Assembly (NCBI RefSeq): GCF_002723955.1
Contig: NZ_BEWN01000005.1
Coordinates: 248,001-312,000, forward strand
Direction of reading: 5' to 3'
Length of the DNA: 64,000 bases
Source: Gluconobacter frateurii
GTDB lineage: Bacteria; Pseudomonadota; Alphaproteobacteria; Acetobacterales; Acetobacteraceae
The notes beneath the pieces were generated by a model that was given only the letters and a program-made list of their open reading frames with translations, had not been told where the DNA came from and searched no databases. Both the position numbers and the translations under genes were made by a program. Every line of letters starts with the position of its first letter. Within the stretch, counting starts at the first letter, position 1. Shown one piece after another: positions 2,116 to 7,869 of this stretch.

Positions 2116-3522
2116 TCAACTTCCAACCGCCGGAGTGGTGGAGCGATCTTCCTGTGTCGTCACGCCCAGCTGCTTGAGTTTGCGATGCAGCGCGCTGCGC
2201 TCCATGCAGACAAAATTGGCCGTGCGACTGATATTGCCGCCAAACCGCATCAACTGGACCTGAAGATACTGGGTCTCAAACAGATCCCGAGCTTCGCGAA
2301 GTGGGAGGCTCATGACATCTGCTCCGGAGTTCAGCCGGGTCATGGACGGCGCACCCTGACTGATGCTGGACGGCAGCATATCCGCACGGATGGGATCACT
2401 GCCCGAGCCCGGCATCATAATCAGCAGACGTTCCATCAGGTTCCGCAATTCGCGGACATTCCCCGGCCATTCGTAAGCCTGCAAAGCAGCCAGCGCATCC
2501 ACGGACAGCTCACGGATCGGCAACCCGGAGGATTGGGCGCAACGCTCAAGAAAGTGCTTGGCCAGACCCGGAATATCTTCCCGGCGCTCGCGCAACGACG
2601 GAATACGCAGTGGCACGACGGCCAGACGATAGTACAGGTCTTCACGGAACCGATGCGCCATGATCTCGGACTGAAGATCACGGTTGGTCGTCGCGATGAC
2701 ACGCACATCCACCTTGATGCGCGTATTCCCGCCAATCCGTTCAAATGTCTGGTCCTGAAGAGCACGAACAATCTTGCCCTGCGTCTCCAGAGGCATATCG
2801 GCCACTTCATCAAGCAGCAAAGTGCCCCGATGGGAACGCTCCAGAACGCCCCGGCGCGCCGGCTGCCCGTCGTTTCCCTCAAGGCCGAACAGCTCCTCTT
2901 CGAAGCGATTCGGAGCCAGAGTGGCGCAGTTCAGCGCAATGAACGGCCCTTCCGCACGGCGGGATCGAGCGTGGATCATGCGCGCGGCCACTTCTTTGCC
3001 TGAGCCGGCAGGGCCGGTAATCAGCACACGGGAGTTGGTCGGTGCAACACGCTCAATCTGGCCACGGACTGCCGAAATGGCTGCGCCTTCACCGGATAAG
3101 GTCGTCTCCGGACCGGCCCGCAGCTTTAGTTCTGCATTTTCACGCTGCAAACGAGCGGCCTCAAGGGCACGCTGCACCACGACCAGAAGCCTGTCAGACT
3201 GAAAAGGCTTCTCGATAAAGTCGTATGCACCATGCTTAAGGCTGGCGACAGCCGTCTCAATCGTGCCGTGACCCGAGATCATCACCGCAGGCATTCCTGG
3301 CTCCTCGGCCTGCATGATCTTGAGCAGCTCAAGGCCATCCAGCCTGGAACCCTGCAACCAGATATCCAGAATAGCCAGGGACGGTCTGTTGGCTCTGAAA
3401 AGCTCCAGGGCCTGATCGGAGTTCGCGGCCGTGCGGGTCGCATATCCTTCGTCGTTCAGGATACCTTCGATCAGGAACCGGATGTCCGGCTCGTCATCGA
3501 CGATCAGAATCTCATGTTCCAT
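2116..3522 (-). CDS. ntrX: Response regulator NtrX
   Basis: This 468-residue protein has an N-terminal receiver (phospho-acceptor Asp53 in LAILDIWLQG), an AAA+ domain with Walker A GPAGSGKE and Walker B TLLLDEVAD, and a C-terminal Fis-type helix-turn-helix (GGNISRTANFV). It is the partner of the NtrY kinase. The sigma-54-contacting GAFTGA loop is not seen; the stretch between ELFGLEGND and GVLERSHRG has other residues. Known alphaproteobacterial NtrX proteins often lack GAFTGA as well, so it may not act on sigma-54 promoters. The start overlaps ntrY by 11 bp. Confidence 0.93.
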   Translation of the reverse strand: MEHEILIVDDEPDIRFLIEGILNDEGYATRTAANSDQALELFRANRPSLAILDIWLQGSRLDGLELLKIMQAEEPGMPAVMISGHGTIETAVASLKHGAYDFIEKPFQSDRLLVVVQRALEAARLQRENAELKLRAGPETTLSGEGAAISAVRGQIERVAPTNSRVLITGPAGSGKEVAARMIHARSRRAEGPFIALNCATLAPNRFEEELFGLEGNDGQPARRGVLERSHRGTLLLDEVADMPLETQGKIVRALQDQTFERIGGNTRIKVDVRVIATTNRDLQSEIMAHRFREDLYYRLAVVPLRIPSLRERREDIPGLAKHFLERCAQSSGLPIRELSVDALAALQAYEWPGNVRELRNLMERLLIMMPGSGSDPIRADMLPSSISQGAPSMTRLNSGADVMSLPLREARDLFETQYLQVQLMRFGGNISRTANFVCMERSALHRKLKQLGVTTQEDRSTTPAVGS

Positions 3523-5878
3523 CTGTCACCCTCATGATCCGGCCTTCTTTCTCTCCCGCACCGTCCAGCTCCGCCAGAGGCAGAGACAGCGTGACGAGTG
3601 TCCCGCGCCGTCCGGTGGACGGATCGGGGTCCCGATCGGTGAGTTGAAGCATCCCGGCATGGTCCTCCATGATCTTTTTGACAATCGCAAGACCGAGGCC
3701 CGTGCCCTTCGCCTTGTGTGTCACATAAGGCTCGGTCAACCGGTGGCGTTCCCCCGCCGGCAGGCCGATCCCATCATCTTCTATCCCTAGCAGGACATGC
3801 CCGCCCCGAATGTGCAAGCCCACCACAATGTGTCCGATTGGCTGCACTGTTCCGTCAGAAGCCTTTTCTCCCGGTTTTCCGCGGCCTGTCATAATAATGG
3901 CGTCCGCAGCATTCTGTAGCAGGTTTGTCAGTGCCTGCCCTATGAGTCGCCGATCGCAGCGCACGATTGGCCCTGACGGCGGAAGATCAACCGTCTCGAA
4001 TACGATATCCGGATGGGCATTTCGCTGAAGAACGAGAGCTTCACGACAGATCCTTGAAAAATCCTCATTCTGCATGACGGGCTGCGGCATCCGCGCAAAC
4101 GCAGAAAATTCATCGACCATCCGGCCAATGTCTCCGACCTGACGAACAATCGTATCCACAAGCTGGGTGTAGGTCTCTGGATCGCTCTGGATTTCCTTCA
4201 GAAAGCGCCTCTTGAGGCGTTCGGCTGCAAGCTGGATCGGCGTCAGCGGGTTCTTGATCTCATGCGCGACACGGCGGGCCACATCAGCCCAGGCCGCCTT
4301 GCGCTGCGCAGACTGAAGAGCGGTGATGTCATCGAACGTCACGACGTAACCTGCAACGTCCGTCCCGCGCAGTTCAGCCACAACGCGGACTAAAAGCGTA
4401 CGCCCGGCGCCCGCACCGCCACCCTCACCCGGACCGCCAGGCCGTTGTGCACCGTCCGTATCCACCTGAATTTCATCCGTGTGGATCCGGTCAGGGGCAA
4501 GGCGGGCCTTGTCGAGCAGGATGGAAAATTCCGGCACACTTACTGAAAGCTTGGTACCGATCGCCGGCTGAAGGTCGCGTTGCAGCACCACGGAGGCCGC
4601 GCGGTTGGGCAGCTCAATAACCTGCCCGCGATCCAGACCAATCACACCCGCTGATACACCTGCCAGAACGGTCTCGGTGAAGCGGCGGCGCTCATTGATC
4701 TGATCATAGGCCTGCATCAGTTCGGAACGCTGGCTCTCGAGCTGATCTGTCATCCGGTTGAAGGCGCGCGATAAGCCCACAACCTCATCGTCTTTCTCCC
4801 GGCTGGACTTGGCGGGAACAGGAACGCGAACACCCAGATCACCTTGCGAAATCCGTGTTGCAGCAAGAATGAGAAGACCTAGTGGATTGGCAATGCGGTT
4901 TGCGAGCGCAAGACCAGTCAGCATGCCAACCGCCAGAACCAGCAGTCCCATCAGACCGAAGATCACTACAACCGTGACCTGCGTCTTGCCACGATTGGAA
5001 ATCATGCGCTGGTAATCCTGCACGAGCTCATTCGTGCGACGCATATGTTCCAGAACATCCGGGTCAACAGGCCGGGTAATGACCAACATCAGGCCTGAGT
5101 TACCGCCCAGTGACACAACAGCCCGCACAATCCTCTGATCGGGACGGTCCAAAATGGCCACGTCACCGGCACGCGCCATCTCGACAACAGACTTCGGTGG
5201 CAGTGGAGGCCGGGCATTCATGTCCGTATTGCCCAGCAGGCCACCAACTCCCAGGACCTTGTTGGTCAACGGATCGAAGACTTCCGCATCCGTCAGCCCA
5301 CGTTCATAAACCTCATCATCCAACAGTTCCTGCAGACGCGAAGGATTGTGAAAGAGATCTGTTCCATGTGTGAACAGCTCATCGTTCTGGATCAGGATGA
5401 GTGTGTTTGCGAGGGCAAAAGCTTCCGTCCGGATATTATCATTATGCTCCTGCAGATAGCCAGCCGCGACAGAACGGGCTTCTGACAGGGCATTGCTCAC
5501 ACGGTTGGAAAACCAGATCTCCACGCCATAATGAAAGAACAGCGCAGCGACGGCTCCCACCACGATCGTCGGCGCGACCGCCACGATTCCGAACAGCGTG
5601 ATGAGGCGCGCGTGGAGTCTTGCACCAGCCAGCCCAAGCCGGCGCTCTGCCAGCATTCGCCCGATCTGCACCACGCCCGCTGCCGTAATGAGCATAAGCA
5701 TGATGAAGTCGAGCAGGAAAATGATCGCCTGCACCTGCGGGCGATGCGCCAGGGACATTCCCCCTGCAAGAACGACAAAGGTCGCAAACGCCAGAACCAG
5801 TGCCATGACGGTCAGAAGAACCACCCCGTTGGCGCTTGTCAGTCGTCTCAGCACACGCCCCGGAGACAAAGAACTCAC
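3512..5878 (-). CDS. ntrY: Sensor histidine kinase NtrY
   Basis: A 788-residue membrane kinase, probably signalling nitrogen or redox state to NtrX. Several transmembrane helices lie in roughly the first 100 residues, followed by a periplasmic region and another helix near 300-325. A HAMP domain (ANRIANPLGLL), a PAS-like domain (RRRFTETVLAGVSAG), the H-box RRVAHEIKNPLTPIQ and the ATP-binding GIGLPAGE and GTGLGLAI boxes follow. The length suits NtrY. The start is GTG at 5878, overlapping the stop of the upstream ntrC-like gene (GTGA). Confidence 0.93.
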   Translation of the reverse strand: MSSLSPGRVLRRLTSANGVVLLTVMALVLAFATFVVLAGGMSLAHRPQVQAIIFLLDFIMLMLITAAGVVQIGRMLAERRLGLAGARLHARLITLFGIVAVAPTIVVGAVAALFFHYGVEIWFSNRVSNALSEARSVAAGYLQEHNDNIRTEAFALANTLILIQNDELFTHGTDLFHNPSRLQELLDDEVYERGLTDAEVFDPLTNKVLGVGGLLGNTDMNARPPLPPKSVVEMARAGDVAILDRPDQRIVRAVVSLGGNSGLMLVITRPVDPDVLEHMRRTNELVQDYQRMISNRGKTQVTVVVIFGLMGLLVLAVGMLTGLALANRIANPLGLLILAATRISQGDLGVRVPVPAKSSREKDDEVVGLSRAFNRMTDQLESQRSELMQAYDQINERRRFTETVLAGVSAGVIGLDRGQVIELPNRAASVVLQRDLQPAIGTKLSVSVPEFSILLDKARLAPDRIHTDEIQVDTDGAQRPGGPGEGGGAGAGRTLLVRVVAELRGTDVAGYVVTFDDITALQSAQRKAAWADVARRVAHEIKNPLTPIQLAAERLKRRFLKEIQSDPETYTQLVDTIVRQVGDIGRMVDEFSAFARMPQPVMQNEDFSRICREALVLQRNAHPDIVFETVDLPPSGPIVRCDRRLIGQALTNLLQNAADAIIMTGRGKPGEKASDGTVQPIGHIVVGLHIRGGHVLLGIEDDGIGLPAGERHRLTEPYVTHKAKGTGLGLAIVKKIMEDHAGMLQLTDRDPDPSTGRRGTLVTLSLPLAELDGAGEKEGRIMRVTDGT

Positions 5879-6603
5879 TCGTCACTTCCCTTTGGAACCG
5901 TAATATCCAGTTCCCTGATCTTCTTGCGCAAGGTGTTGCGGTTCAGACCAAGCATGGCGGCGGCCCGAAGCTGATTGCCACTTGTCCGACGCAGCACCAT
6001 GGTAATGAGCGGACGTTCGACTTCCCCCACCACACTGGCATGAAGATCGCCTGCATCATTTTCGAGACCCGTCTCGAAATACTCTGTCAGCGGGCGCTCA
6101 AGCGCTCTGGCCAGCCCCCGCGGTCGATCATTCCCGGCTCCAGGAAGCCGGCAGACAGCACTGATGCGCTCTGGCCCCAGTCTCTGGGAGGGCTCGAAGG
6201 CTGCCAGCCAGCGATGTAATCCAGCCTGAAAACCACCCTGCCGGAGCAGTAGTGTCAAATCGTGGCGACTGGCAGCAATAATCCTGACATCCGCTTCCCG
6301 ACGTTCTATTTCTTCAATAAACCGAACCTGCAAGGACGGCCCCAGACAATCGATCTCGTCCAGAAGCAGGGTACCTCCGCGTGCCTGTGCAAACCATCCT
6401 GCTTCACGCGCGCCAAACAGGGCTTCTTCTCGCAAAGCACATGGTGTGGCGGTCAGTGCAGCCACCACGAAGGGCTTCTGCGCACGACGGCTATGGTTAT
6501 GCAGCCGGCGGGCCACATCCTGCCGGTCAAGTCGCGAAGCGCCATAAAGAAAGACGGGACGACAGGCATCATCCGCCAGCAGAGGCTCAACCTGCATCAT
6601 CAT
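5875..6603 (-). CDS. Degenerate, receiverless NtrC-like protein
   Basis: This 242-residue protein occupies the usual ntrC position but lacks the whole receiver domain. What is left resembles an AAA+ core plus a Fis-type helix-turn-helix (GNQLRAAAMLGLNRNTLRKK). The Walker A position reads GASRLDRQ, without the GKS/T lysine, and the segment before the Walker B (TLLLDEID) has no GAFTGA. ATP-driven sigma-54 activation therefore looks impossible, while DNA binding may remain. A TTG start at 6621 is possible; the ATG at 6603, the first of three, is preferred. No ntrB gene lies between it and dusB. It may work as a plain repressor or dimer partner, or be a relic. Confidence 0.75.
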   Translation of the reverse strand: MMMQVEPLLADDACRPVFLYGASRLDRQDVARRLHNHSRRAQKPFVVAALTATPCALREEALFGAREAGWFAQARGGTLLLDEIDCLGPSLQVRFIEEIERREADVRIIAASRHDLTLLLRQGGFQAGLHRWLAAFEPSQRLGPERISAVCRLPGAGNDRPRGLARALERPLTEYFETGLENDAGDLHASVVGEVERPLITMVLRRTSGNQLRAAAMLGLNRNTLRKKIRELDITVPKGSDE

Positions 6604-6648
6604 GCCTGACGGTGAAGGCAACGGTCAGACAGAAGACACCTCATGCCC

Positions 6649-7740
6649 TCAAGCCGCCTCACTGCATCCATCACGCGGCATACTCCCAGCAGGTCCGTTT
6701 TCACGATCCCTGACTACTCCTGCTTCAATATGCCGGTCGTAAAACTCTTCCATCATGCCAATCGCTTCCGGCGCATTATCCACACGGTTGATAGCGGACC
6801 GGAACGTGGCAGACCCTGGCAAACCTGCTGAATACCAAGACACATGCTTGCGTGCGAGGCGCAAGCCTGGACGTTCCCCGAAATGATCGAGCATCATGCG
6901 GTAGTGGCGCAGGGCAATGGATTTTTCGGTCGCCAGATCCGGGTCCGGAACATCCTGCCCCGTTTTCAAGGACTGAGCCACCTGCGCTGTGAACCATGGC
7001 CGTCCATAGCATCCCCGCCCGATCATCACCCCGTCAGCGCCAGACTGATGCAACGCCTCACGGGCATCACGGATCGTGTTGATATCTCCATTCACGATCA
7101 CGGGCAGACCGACAGCATCCTTCACGGTCTTCACGAAACGCCAGTCTGCCGTCCCGTTATAGAACATCTGACGAGTGCGGCCATGAACCGTCACGAGCCG
7201 GATTCCACTCTCTTCCGCGATTTTCGCAAGGCGTGGCGCGTTGAGGGAATTATGATCCCAACCCATCCGCATCTTGAGCGTCACGGGAACATTCACAGCC
7301 CTTACCGTAGCCTCAAGAATCTTTCCGGCCTGCACTTCGTCCCGCATCAGGGCAGAACCCGCCATCTGCCCGATCGCGACCTTCTTCACAGGGCAGCCGA
7401 AATTGATGTCGATGAGGTTTGCACCGCCATCAACCGCAATCTTCGCAGCCTGTGCCATCGCCTCCGGATCACACCCCGCGAGTTGAACCGCATTCGGGCC
7501 ATTATCGGCCGAACGCGCCATCCGCATGGTATTTTCGTTCTCCCGGATCATCGCCCAGGACGCGATCATTTCGGACACCACAAGCCCGGCGCCTAACTCG
7601 CGCGCAAGCTGGCGGAACGGCAGATCCGTCACGCCCGAGAGCGGAGCGAGGATCACCGGGTCTTCGATCACCACACCCTGGCCAAGATCAATCGGCGCGA
7701 GAACGCGGTTCGGAGGAGCAGAAGAGGAGGAAGCTGTCAT
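6649..7740 (-). CDS. dusB: tRNA-dihydrouridine synthase DusB (NifR3)
   Basis: This 363-residue FMN enzyme reduces uridines in the tRNA D-loop. It has the TIM-barrel start [13 protein letters not shown], the catalytic-cysteine motif [10 protein letters not shown], and the VHGRTR and [10 protein letters not shown] phosphate-binding segments. It heads the ntr run, as nifR3 does in most alphaproteobacteria, with about 45 bp to the ntrC-like start. The C-terminal roughly 30 residues look poorly conserved. It is divergent from the hydrolase gene at 7870. Confidence 0.95.
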
Positions 7741-7869
7741 GACCCCGCCAATTTACCGATGCGTCCACGCAAGCGCAAACGCTCCTTTGCCACGAAACCG
7801 TTAACGCCCCTGAAACGCTATGGCCTTGCATCCCTTCCCTACTTCAGCAAGGCAACGCAGGAAGCTCCC

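Follow-up and report, generated by a model that had tools for sequence, protein, structure and literature searches.

A truncated ntrC gene downstream of dusB in Gluconobacter frateurii, probably stripped stepwise into a Fis-like regulator

Introduction

Morett and Bork reportedly proposed in 1998 that Fis is a descendant of NtrC. In Caulobacter, an NtrC without the GAFTGA motif is reported to regulate sigma-70 promoters; its site motif is related to the Escherichia coli Fis motif, and 37 of its 51 sites overlap those bound by the nucleoid protein GapR (PMC10274813). The NtrC of Sinorhizobium is a repressor of its own operon and binds the promoter of dusB (PMC10746234). For acetic acid bacteria, two papers report ntrB and ntrC in Acetobacter pasteurianus Ab3 (with table entries for length of 1110 and 1443) and Gluconacetobacter diazotrophicus (PMC5017713, PMC2765452), and a third reports that an NtrC-family gene, possibly the one described here, is up-regulated in G. 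oxydans NL71 (PMC5403930). Here we analyzed a 64,000-nucleotide stretch of the G. frateurii genome (contig NZ_BEWN01000005.1, positions 248,001 to 312,000; hereafter, the window), in which the ntrC position between dusB and ntrY is occupied by a truncated ntrC gene. No description of this truncated form was found in a search of open-licence papers. We propose that the gene probably arose from ntrC by the loss of one part after another and now encodes a constitutive DNA-binding regulator of a Fis-like kind.

Results

The window gene encodes an NtrC reduced to an AAA-derived core and a Fis-type domain

A Pfam search of the window protein gave a partial match to Sigma54_activat (58.7 bits) and an almost full match to HTH_8 (50.2 bits). 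Response_reg was not matched in this search, and the receiver is missing in the alignment too. When the protein was aligned with ordinary NtrC, the Walker A sequence GESGTGKE was found to be replaced by GASRLDRQ. The L1 loop (GAFTGA) and a second insertion are deleted, the arginine finger, lid and sensor II are deleted as well, and the linker is shortened. The remainder is a continuous alpha/beta core followed by Fis-type helices, and the helix-turn-helix (HTH) is intact, with the sequence GNQLRAAAMLGLNRNTLRKK. The features of the gene are as follows (amino acids, aa).

5875..6603, minus strand: truncated NtrC-derived gene; 242 aa from the ATG at 6603; present in 26/26 genus genomes
6621, minus strand: alternative TTG start; the open reading frame 5875-6621 would give 248 aa
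6151..6567, minus strand: AAA-derived alpha/beta core, lid deleted; about residues 12-150 (241-aa numbering)
6520..6543, minus strand: former Walker A (GASRLDRQ), with Arg26 in place of the Lys
6397..6414, minus strand: junction of the deleted L1 (GAFTGA) loop, from the alignment
6349..6378, minus strand: former Walker B, GGTLLLDEID, from the alignment
6166..6204, minus strand: region of the deleted arginine-finger, lid and sensor-II segment, from the alignment
5893..6120, minus strand: Fis-type dimerisation helices and HTH; residues 161-236
5917..5943, minus strand: recognition helix NRNTLRKKI, from the alignment
5875..5878, minus strand: GTGA overlap of the truncated ntrC stop codon and the ntrY GTG start

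By curated cut-offs, the window protein is a member of neither NtrC nor Fis: it scored 110.4 bits with the NtrC model TIGR01818 (cut-off 558.6) and 62.4 bits with the Fis model PRK00430 (cut-off 99). In the PDB, its HTH region matched E. coli Fis (1ety) with an E value of 2.6e-13. A preliminary description of this DNA had read the gene as an NtrC relic without receiver, Walker A Lys or GAFTGA but with an intact HTH, translationally coupled to ntrY and lacking an ntrB neighbour. Pfam and the alignment confirm this anatomy, and the GTGA overlap at 5875-5878 agrees with the coupling.

We searched the window genome (G000; 3.31 Mb, 10 contigs, 99.97% complete) for an ordinary NtrB/NtrC pair. No match to TIGR01818 above the cut-off was found in this genome, the best matches being NtrX and the PspF equivalog. 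The strong sigma-54-activator matches are this PspF equivalog, which lies beside PspA, and NtrX; the truncated ntrC comes third, and four weaker matches score 21-39 bits. An NtrB query gave NtrY as its best match at 73.8 bits, as compared with 238-748 bits in three NtrB-bearing genomes. Thus, ntrB is missing as described, and the full-length ntrB/ntrC pair elsewhere in the genome that would have spoken against the preliminary description was found by neither query.

The slot between dusB and ntrY forms a graded series in Acetobacteraceae

The locus from dusB to ntrX was examined in 41 genomes, namely the window genome and 40 chosen from a 200-genome sample of the family. The slot between dusB and ntrY holds ntrB and ntrC in 18 of these loci. 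Seven loci lack ntrB and the receiver and keep more of the AAA part, 12 have the short form (about 235 aa), one (G025) encodes a 95-aa protein, and in three (G029, G116 and G066) there is nothing between dusB and ntrY. All 17 ordinary NtrC rows have the Asp motif of the receiver as well as the P-loop, whereas GAF[TSA]GA is present in 10/17. Where ntrB is not a neighbour (20 proteins), neither the receiver (0/20) nor GAFTGA (0/20) was found; the P-loop Lys is kept in 4/20 and the NRNTLRK helix in 20/20.

The 18th ntrBC row, G048, has a long NtrC in which the Walker A Lys is changed to Arg and the Walker B acid pair is missing. Its NtrB reads RGVRNP where that of G030 reads HEVRNP, so the phospho-acceptor His is gone.

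Locus L051 of G048: ntrB 3297-4373 and ntrC frame 4386-5981, in one operon

This dead-looking pair is likely a step that precedes deletion. The opposite end of the series is G025, the only genome of its genus in the sample. Its gene encodes 95 aa, as compared with 98 for Fis, and overlaps ntrY by ATGA. In the PDB, E. coli Fis was the best match of the protein (E 5.5e-12; NtrC 1ntc, 1.5e-4), and in NCBIfam its Fis score of 62.7 bits exceeds its NtrC score of 48.9 bits, both being under the respective cut-offs. Short frames in G119 and G171 were considered as further Fis-sized forms and rejected, as they are located at contig ends.

The form of about 235 aa is carried by Gluconobacter, Neokomagataea, Saccharibacter, Bombella and others. 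Its carriers include Gluconobacter potus (G210), G. roseus (G211), Gluconobacter sp. Dm-62 (G214), Neokomagataea thailandica (G180), Saccharibacter sp. EH611 (G158), Bombella intestini (G170) and the Acetobacteraceae bacteria B3987 (G118) and ESL0709 (G061); Saccharibacter floricola and Bombella saccharophila have the short form as well. The first four of these carriers fall into the same genus grouping as the window, which is thus Gluconobacter in a wide sense. In a contig scan that asked whether the short form occurs outside Acetobacteraceae, 11 of the best 80 loci had the short form, and the other 69, which are longer matches, were taken as ordinary NtrC without individual reading.

A tree was constructed from DusB and NtrX (41 rows, 807 columns; stops inside the NtrX tblastn segments of L044 and L051 were set to X). 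All rows without ntrB, together with G048, form a single clade (support 100/100), within which the form of about 235 aa and the three empty slots form a subclade (100/99). The grouping of G048 with the seven receiver-less rows and G025 has a support of just 82/72, and a tree that places G048 outside, so that ntrB was lost only once, was not rejected (approximately unbiased test, p-AU 0.41). On this tree, the empty slots are two events. For several relatives, no overlap between the slot gene and ntrY is apparent. As side observations on ntrY, its matches lie in two frames in G126 (L053), and a TAA is present inside the match of G046.

GAFTGA is eroded in the NtrC of seven otherwise complete ntrBC genomes (G030, G169, G117, G013, G040, G122 and G173), and RpoN is absent in 6/6 of those tested. 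G135 (GAFTGA) and G073 (GAFAGA) are also without RpoN, which speaks against a simple link between GAFTGA and RpoN.

The retained part is under purifying selection and is predicted to fold

The truncated ntrC gene is present without a stop codon in all 26 genus genomes examined. We computed omega, the ratio of non-synonymous (dN) to synonymous (dS) substitution rates, for 21 pairs; the pair G216-G217 was dropped, and the ranges given are for pairs with dS < 1.2. The AAA-derived part (residues 12-140) had omega values of 0.01-0.09 and the HTH (residues 181-236) values of 0-0.06, as compared with 0.01-0.04 for the N-terminal part of NtrY and 0-0.03 for DusB. Among pairs with dS > 1.2, the highest finite value for the AAA part was 0.13 (G000-G208, saturated at dS 1.82). 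In most close pairs, the AAA part has a higher dN than NtrY, the ratio of the two ranging from 0.4 to about 6.

G216 was left out of the invariance and selection counts because its contig begins near the gene and the sequence was wrongly cut. In 33/33 usable rows (34 given), Arg26, which stands at the former P-loop Lys position, Glu82, Asp84 and Trp131 are invariant, and so is the NRNTLRK of the recognition helix; Asp81 of the former Walker B is kept in 31/33. The AAA-derived half is under strong purifying selection. Because the frame is open in all 26 genomes and omega is low, the gene is not decaying: selection is not relaxed, as it would be in a pseudogene or decaying relic. The preliminary description had argued against simple decay, and the selection in relatives, the absence of which would have told against it, is strong.

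An AlphaFold2 model was calculated from an alignment of the window and named-locus sequences (34 rows). The mean predicted local distance difference test score (pLDDT) was 83.4, with values of mostly 83-93 in the core, and the model consists of a folded core and a Fis-type domain. With VIA-align, the predicted core matched the AAA domains of bacterial enhancer-binding proteins (bEBPs), namely LuxO 5ep0 (Z 17.1, root-mean-square deviation (rmsd) 3.0 over 143 residues) and 4bs1 (Z 17.0, rmsd 2.5 over 140 residues). Entries of VpsR and FleQ, with cyclic di-GMP (c-di-GMP) in their titles, were also among the structural matches of the core. The term relic understates the AAA-derived half, which is constrained and predicted to fold.

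The short form persists in genomes without sigma-54

RpoN was found in 23 of the 49 genomes tested. Among the 22 tested genomes with the form of about 235 aa, 10 have RpoN and 12 do not. Because the protein is kept in these 12 genomes, its retained function, as read from gene content, cannot require sigma-54 there. A sigma-54 enhancer-binding protein works with RpoN and hydrolyses ATP; by sequence alone, the form of about 235 aa does not have this character, its P-loop being lost.

The window genome itself has RpoN. In this genome, pspF adjoins pspA (contig 2, L002 1405-2457 and 609-1328) and is the sole strong activator match seen with a GAFTGA loop; RpoN may therefore serve mainly psp there. 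A weak match to the C-terminal HTH of NtrC (22.9 bits) lies in a 307-aa open frame of the same genome (contig 2, 610904-611023).

The flanking genes in the window are as follows.

6649..7740, minus strand: dusB, upstream of the truncated ntrC; TIGR00737, 385.9 bits
3512..5878, minus strand: ntrY; Pfam NtrY_N, HAMP, HisKA and HATPase_c
2116..3522, minus strand: ntrX, full length, without GAFTGA; NF051870, 696 bits (cut-off 600)

Just 5' of the dusB start, at 7750-7778, lies a block TTGCGC-N17-TAAATT, which is partly conserved in the genus and looks like a sigma-70 promoter.

An element upstream of glnK accompanies the clade

In the ntrBC genomes examined for P-II genes, G048 aside, a glnB-type P-II gene adjoins glnA in 13/13. 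The 32 other genomes with a filled slot have one P-II gene, of the GlnK type, and amtB was found downstream of it in 28/32. The NtrB search covered 23 of these 32 and the reading of the slot 30; the other two, G149 and G192, were assigned from the genus of G085. The clade of the form of about 235 aa is without the glnB-glnA pair.

A 22-bp palindromic element with the consensus ATCGTTATGAAACTGGCACGAT is present upstream of glnK in 31 of these 32 genomes at p <= 0.01 by shuffling (G070 misses), where p is a ranking alone, because the consensus was read off the same sequences, the shuffles ignore kinship and all 31 belong to one clade. In the 13 ntrBC genomes, 23 regions upstream of P-II genes (13 glnB-glnA and 10 other P-II genes) were examined, and the element was found in none of them at this threshold (lowest p 0.028 and 0.048); it was not found in G048, G029 and G116 either. 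The element loci are as follows.

L183, G000 contig 2, upstream of glnK: element in the window genome
L184-L204, L207-L212, L214-L216 and L275: element in relatives

Across 19 distinct variants of the element, the 5-bp arms pair in 83% of cells, as compared with at most 50% when they are slid. Arms that are changed yet paired include ATCGT/ACGAT, ATTGT/ACAAT and ATCAT/ATGAT; ATCAT/ACGAA is unpaired. Many versions of the element contain TGGCACG, which we take to be the -24 stretch of the sigma-54 consensus. Sigma-54 was rejected as the present function of the element, as the -12 half is unconserved and the element persists without RpoN.

A regulon search was performed in 30 genomes with the 20-base element consensus, allowing <= 3 mismatches, and with the pattern read backwards as a control. 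There were 39 matches, 18 at glnK and 21 elsewhere, as compared with 7 in total for the control. Thirteen of the 21 lie in frames of >= 200 aa, and no recurrent target was recognised. One match that recurs in G000 and G208 lies inside a 592-aa GMC oxidoreductase-like frame; a recurrent 3-mismatch version outside long frames was found at G000 contig 5, 4643-4662, and G219 contig 187, 4717-4736. In the window genome, the glnK variant differs from this pattern by > 3 mismatches and was missed, so the search is not valid as a regulon search of that genome.

In the empty-slot genomes, P-II was not found in G066 and is divergent in G029 and G116 (56 bits, as compared with at least 97.6 in the other 46). 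This pattern amounts to two losses in small genomes, and equally small genomes (for example, G032 and G070) keep both. The link between truncated NtrC and glnK is a correlation only.

Discussion

The anatomy, the graded series and the low omega values suggest that the window protein is probably a Fis-like regulator that works independently of phosphorylation, ATP and sigma-54, with DNA targets that we infer; the DNA binding without phosphorylation put forward in the preliminary description gains support from the sequence. Truncated NtrC would dimerise via its Fis-type helices and bind DNA without phosphorylation, ATP or sigma-54. It would influence ordinary sigma-70 promoters through occlusion, bending or contact. 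Instead of being an ATPase, the AAA-derived core may now serve as an oligomerisation, partner or ligand module. A candidate for its most likely target is glnK-amtB, an assignment that we make tentatively.

Several points weigh against this reading. The AAA part is less constrained than the neighbouring genes in most pairs, and the linker still less (omega <= 0.11). The window protein scores under the curated cut-offs for NtrC and for Fis alike. The domain arrangement in the AlphaFold2 model is unsure, with a predicted template-modelling score (pTM) of just 0.61. A scan for TGCAC-N7-GTGCA in 40 regions upstream of P-II genes gave none under p 0.05 by shuffling, the NtrBC controls included, so that the scan has no power; E. 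coli-type sites upstream of dusB reached best scores of 5-8 of 10, which carry no significance test. The 5-N12-5 spacing of the arms in the glnK element is, we assume, unlike that of classical NtrC or Fis sites, and because of this misfit the glnK assignment stays a lead; the element may be a sigma-70 promoter or the operator of another factor. Finally, in Caulobacter, NtrC without its receiver or AAA domain gave no growth on ammonium, and the Walker residues were needed (PMC10274813). Truncation is therefore not harmless everywhere.

That the gene is a pseudogene in the course of being lost, with coupling to ntrY as the sole reason for its open frame, is very improbable. Three of the 41 loci have nothing in the slot, and dN of the AAA part exceeds that of NtrY in most close pairs, as would be expected of such a gene; however, omega of 0.01-0.09, the lack of stops throughout the genus and invariant residues in both halves contradict it, and several relatives show no evident ntrY overlap. 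The preliminary description had suggested a DNA-binding partner of NtrX, or an antagonist. A heteromer with NtrX, formed through the AAA core or the Fis-type helices, would tune NtrYX output; the operon position, the GTGA overlap and the membership of both proteins in the NtrC family are in its favour. However, NtrY and NtrX are retained in 3/3 empty-slot genomes, so NtrYX does not need truncated NtrC, and because NtrX persists there an obligate partnership is unlikely. Moreover, the lid and arginine finger, which are part of the bEBP subunit contact, are deleted, and the overlap with ntrY is not evident in all relatives. No link to NtrX beyond operon position was found, and we consider this partnership unlikely; that the protein acts as an antagonist is conceivable.

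By analogy with VpsR and FleQ, which respond to c-di-GMP, the degenerate AAA core could instead bind a small molecule that would govern DNA binding, making the protein a sigma-70 regulator under second-messenger or ligand control. A core that is predicted to fold and is constrained despite the loss of the P-loop would suit this role, and VpsR and FleQ are among its structural matches; these matches, however, reflect the shared bEBP fold, and we regard ligand control as doubtful.

It is conceivable, although we would not call it probable, that acetic acid bacteria present an independent and visible replay of the origin of Fis, in which an ntrC after dusB is deprived step by step of sigma-54 loop, ATPase, receiver, kinase and lid and turns into a Fis-sized architectural DNA-binding protein, while glnB-glnA and NtrB are dismantled and glnK-amtB gains a new operator for this protein. 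Within one family, the locus holds living intermediates of a descent such as that from NtrC to a Fis-like protein, which makes the proposal on the origin of Fis testable. It also illustrates that a response regulator can stay under constraint after kinase, receiver, ATPase and sigma factor have all been lost. The case also bears on the control of ammonium uptake without NtrBC in acetic acid bacteria that are used industrially.

The window gene shares its locus, HTH and a recognisable AAA core with alphaproteobacterial NtrC, which is encoded in the order dusB-ntrB-ntrC-ntrY-ntrX. Unlike that protein, the window protein has no receiver, P-loop Lys, GAFTGA or lid, and no NtrB. It resembles gammaproteobacterial Fis, the product of a dusB-fis operon, in its C-terminal domain and its position downstream of dusB, but at 242 aa it keeps an AAA-derived domain and is derived locally from NtrC. 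Among the forms seen, only that of G025 has the character of Fis, about 98 aa without an AAA-derived domain. VpsR and FleQ are degenerate or c-di-GMP-binding bEBPs. As in these proteins, the AAA fold would serve something other than plain sigma-54 activation, although VpsR and FleQ keep more of the AAA module. The NtrC of Caulobacter and Rhodobacter, which lacks GAFTGA, is likewise independent of sigma-54; unlike the window protein, Caulobacter NtrC still has a receiver, a P-loop and its partner NtrB, and growth on ammonium depends on its Walker residues (PMC10274813). As judged from sequence and gene position, the Acetobacteraceae series parallels what has been proposed for the origin of Fis; it belongs to another class but occupies the same place downstream of dusB.

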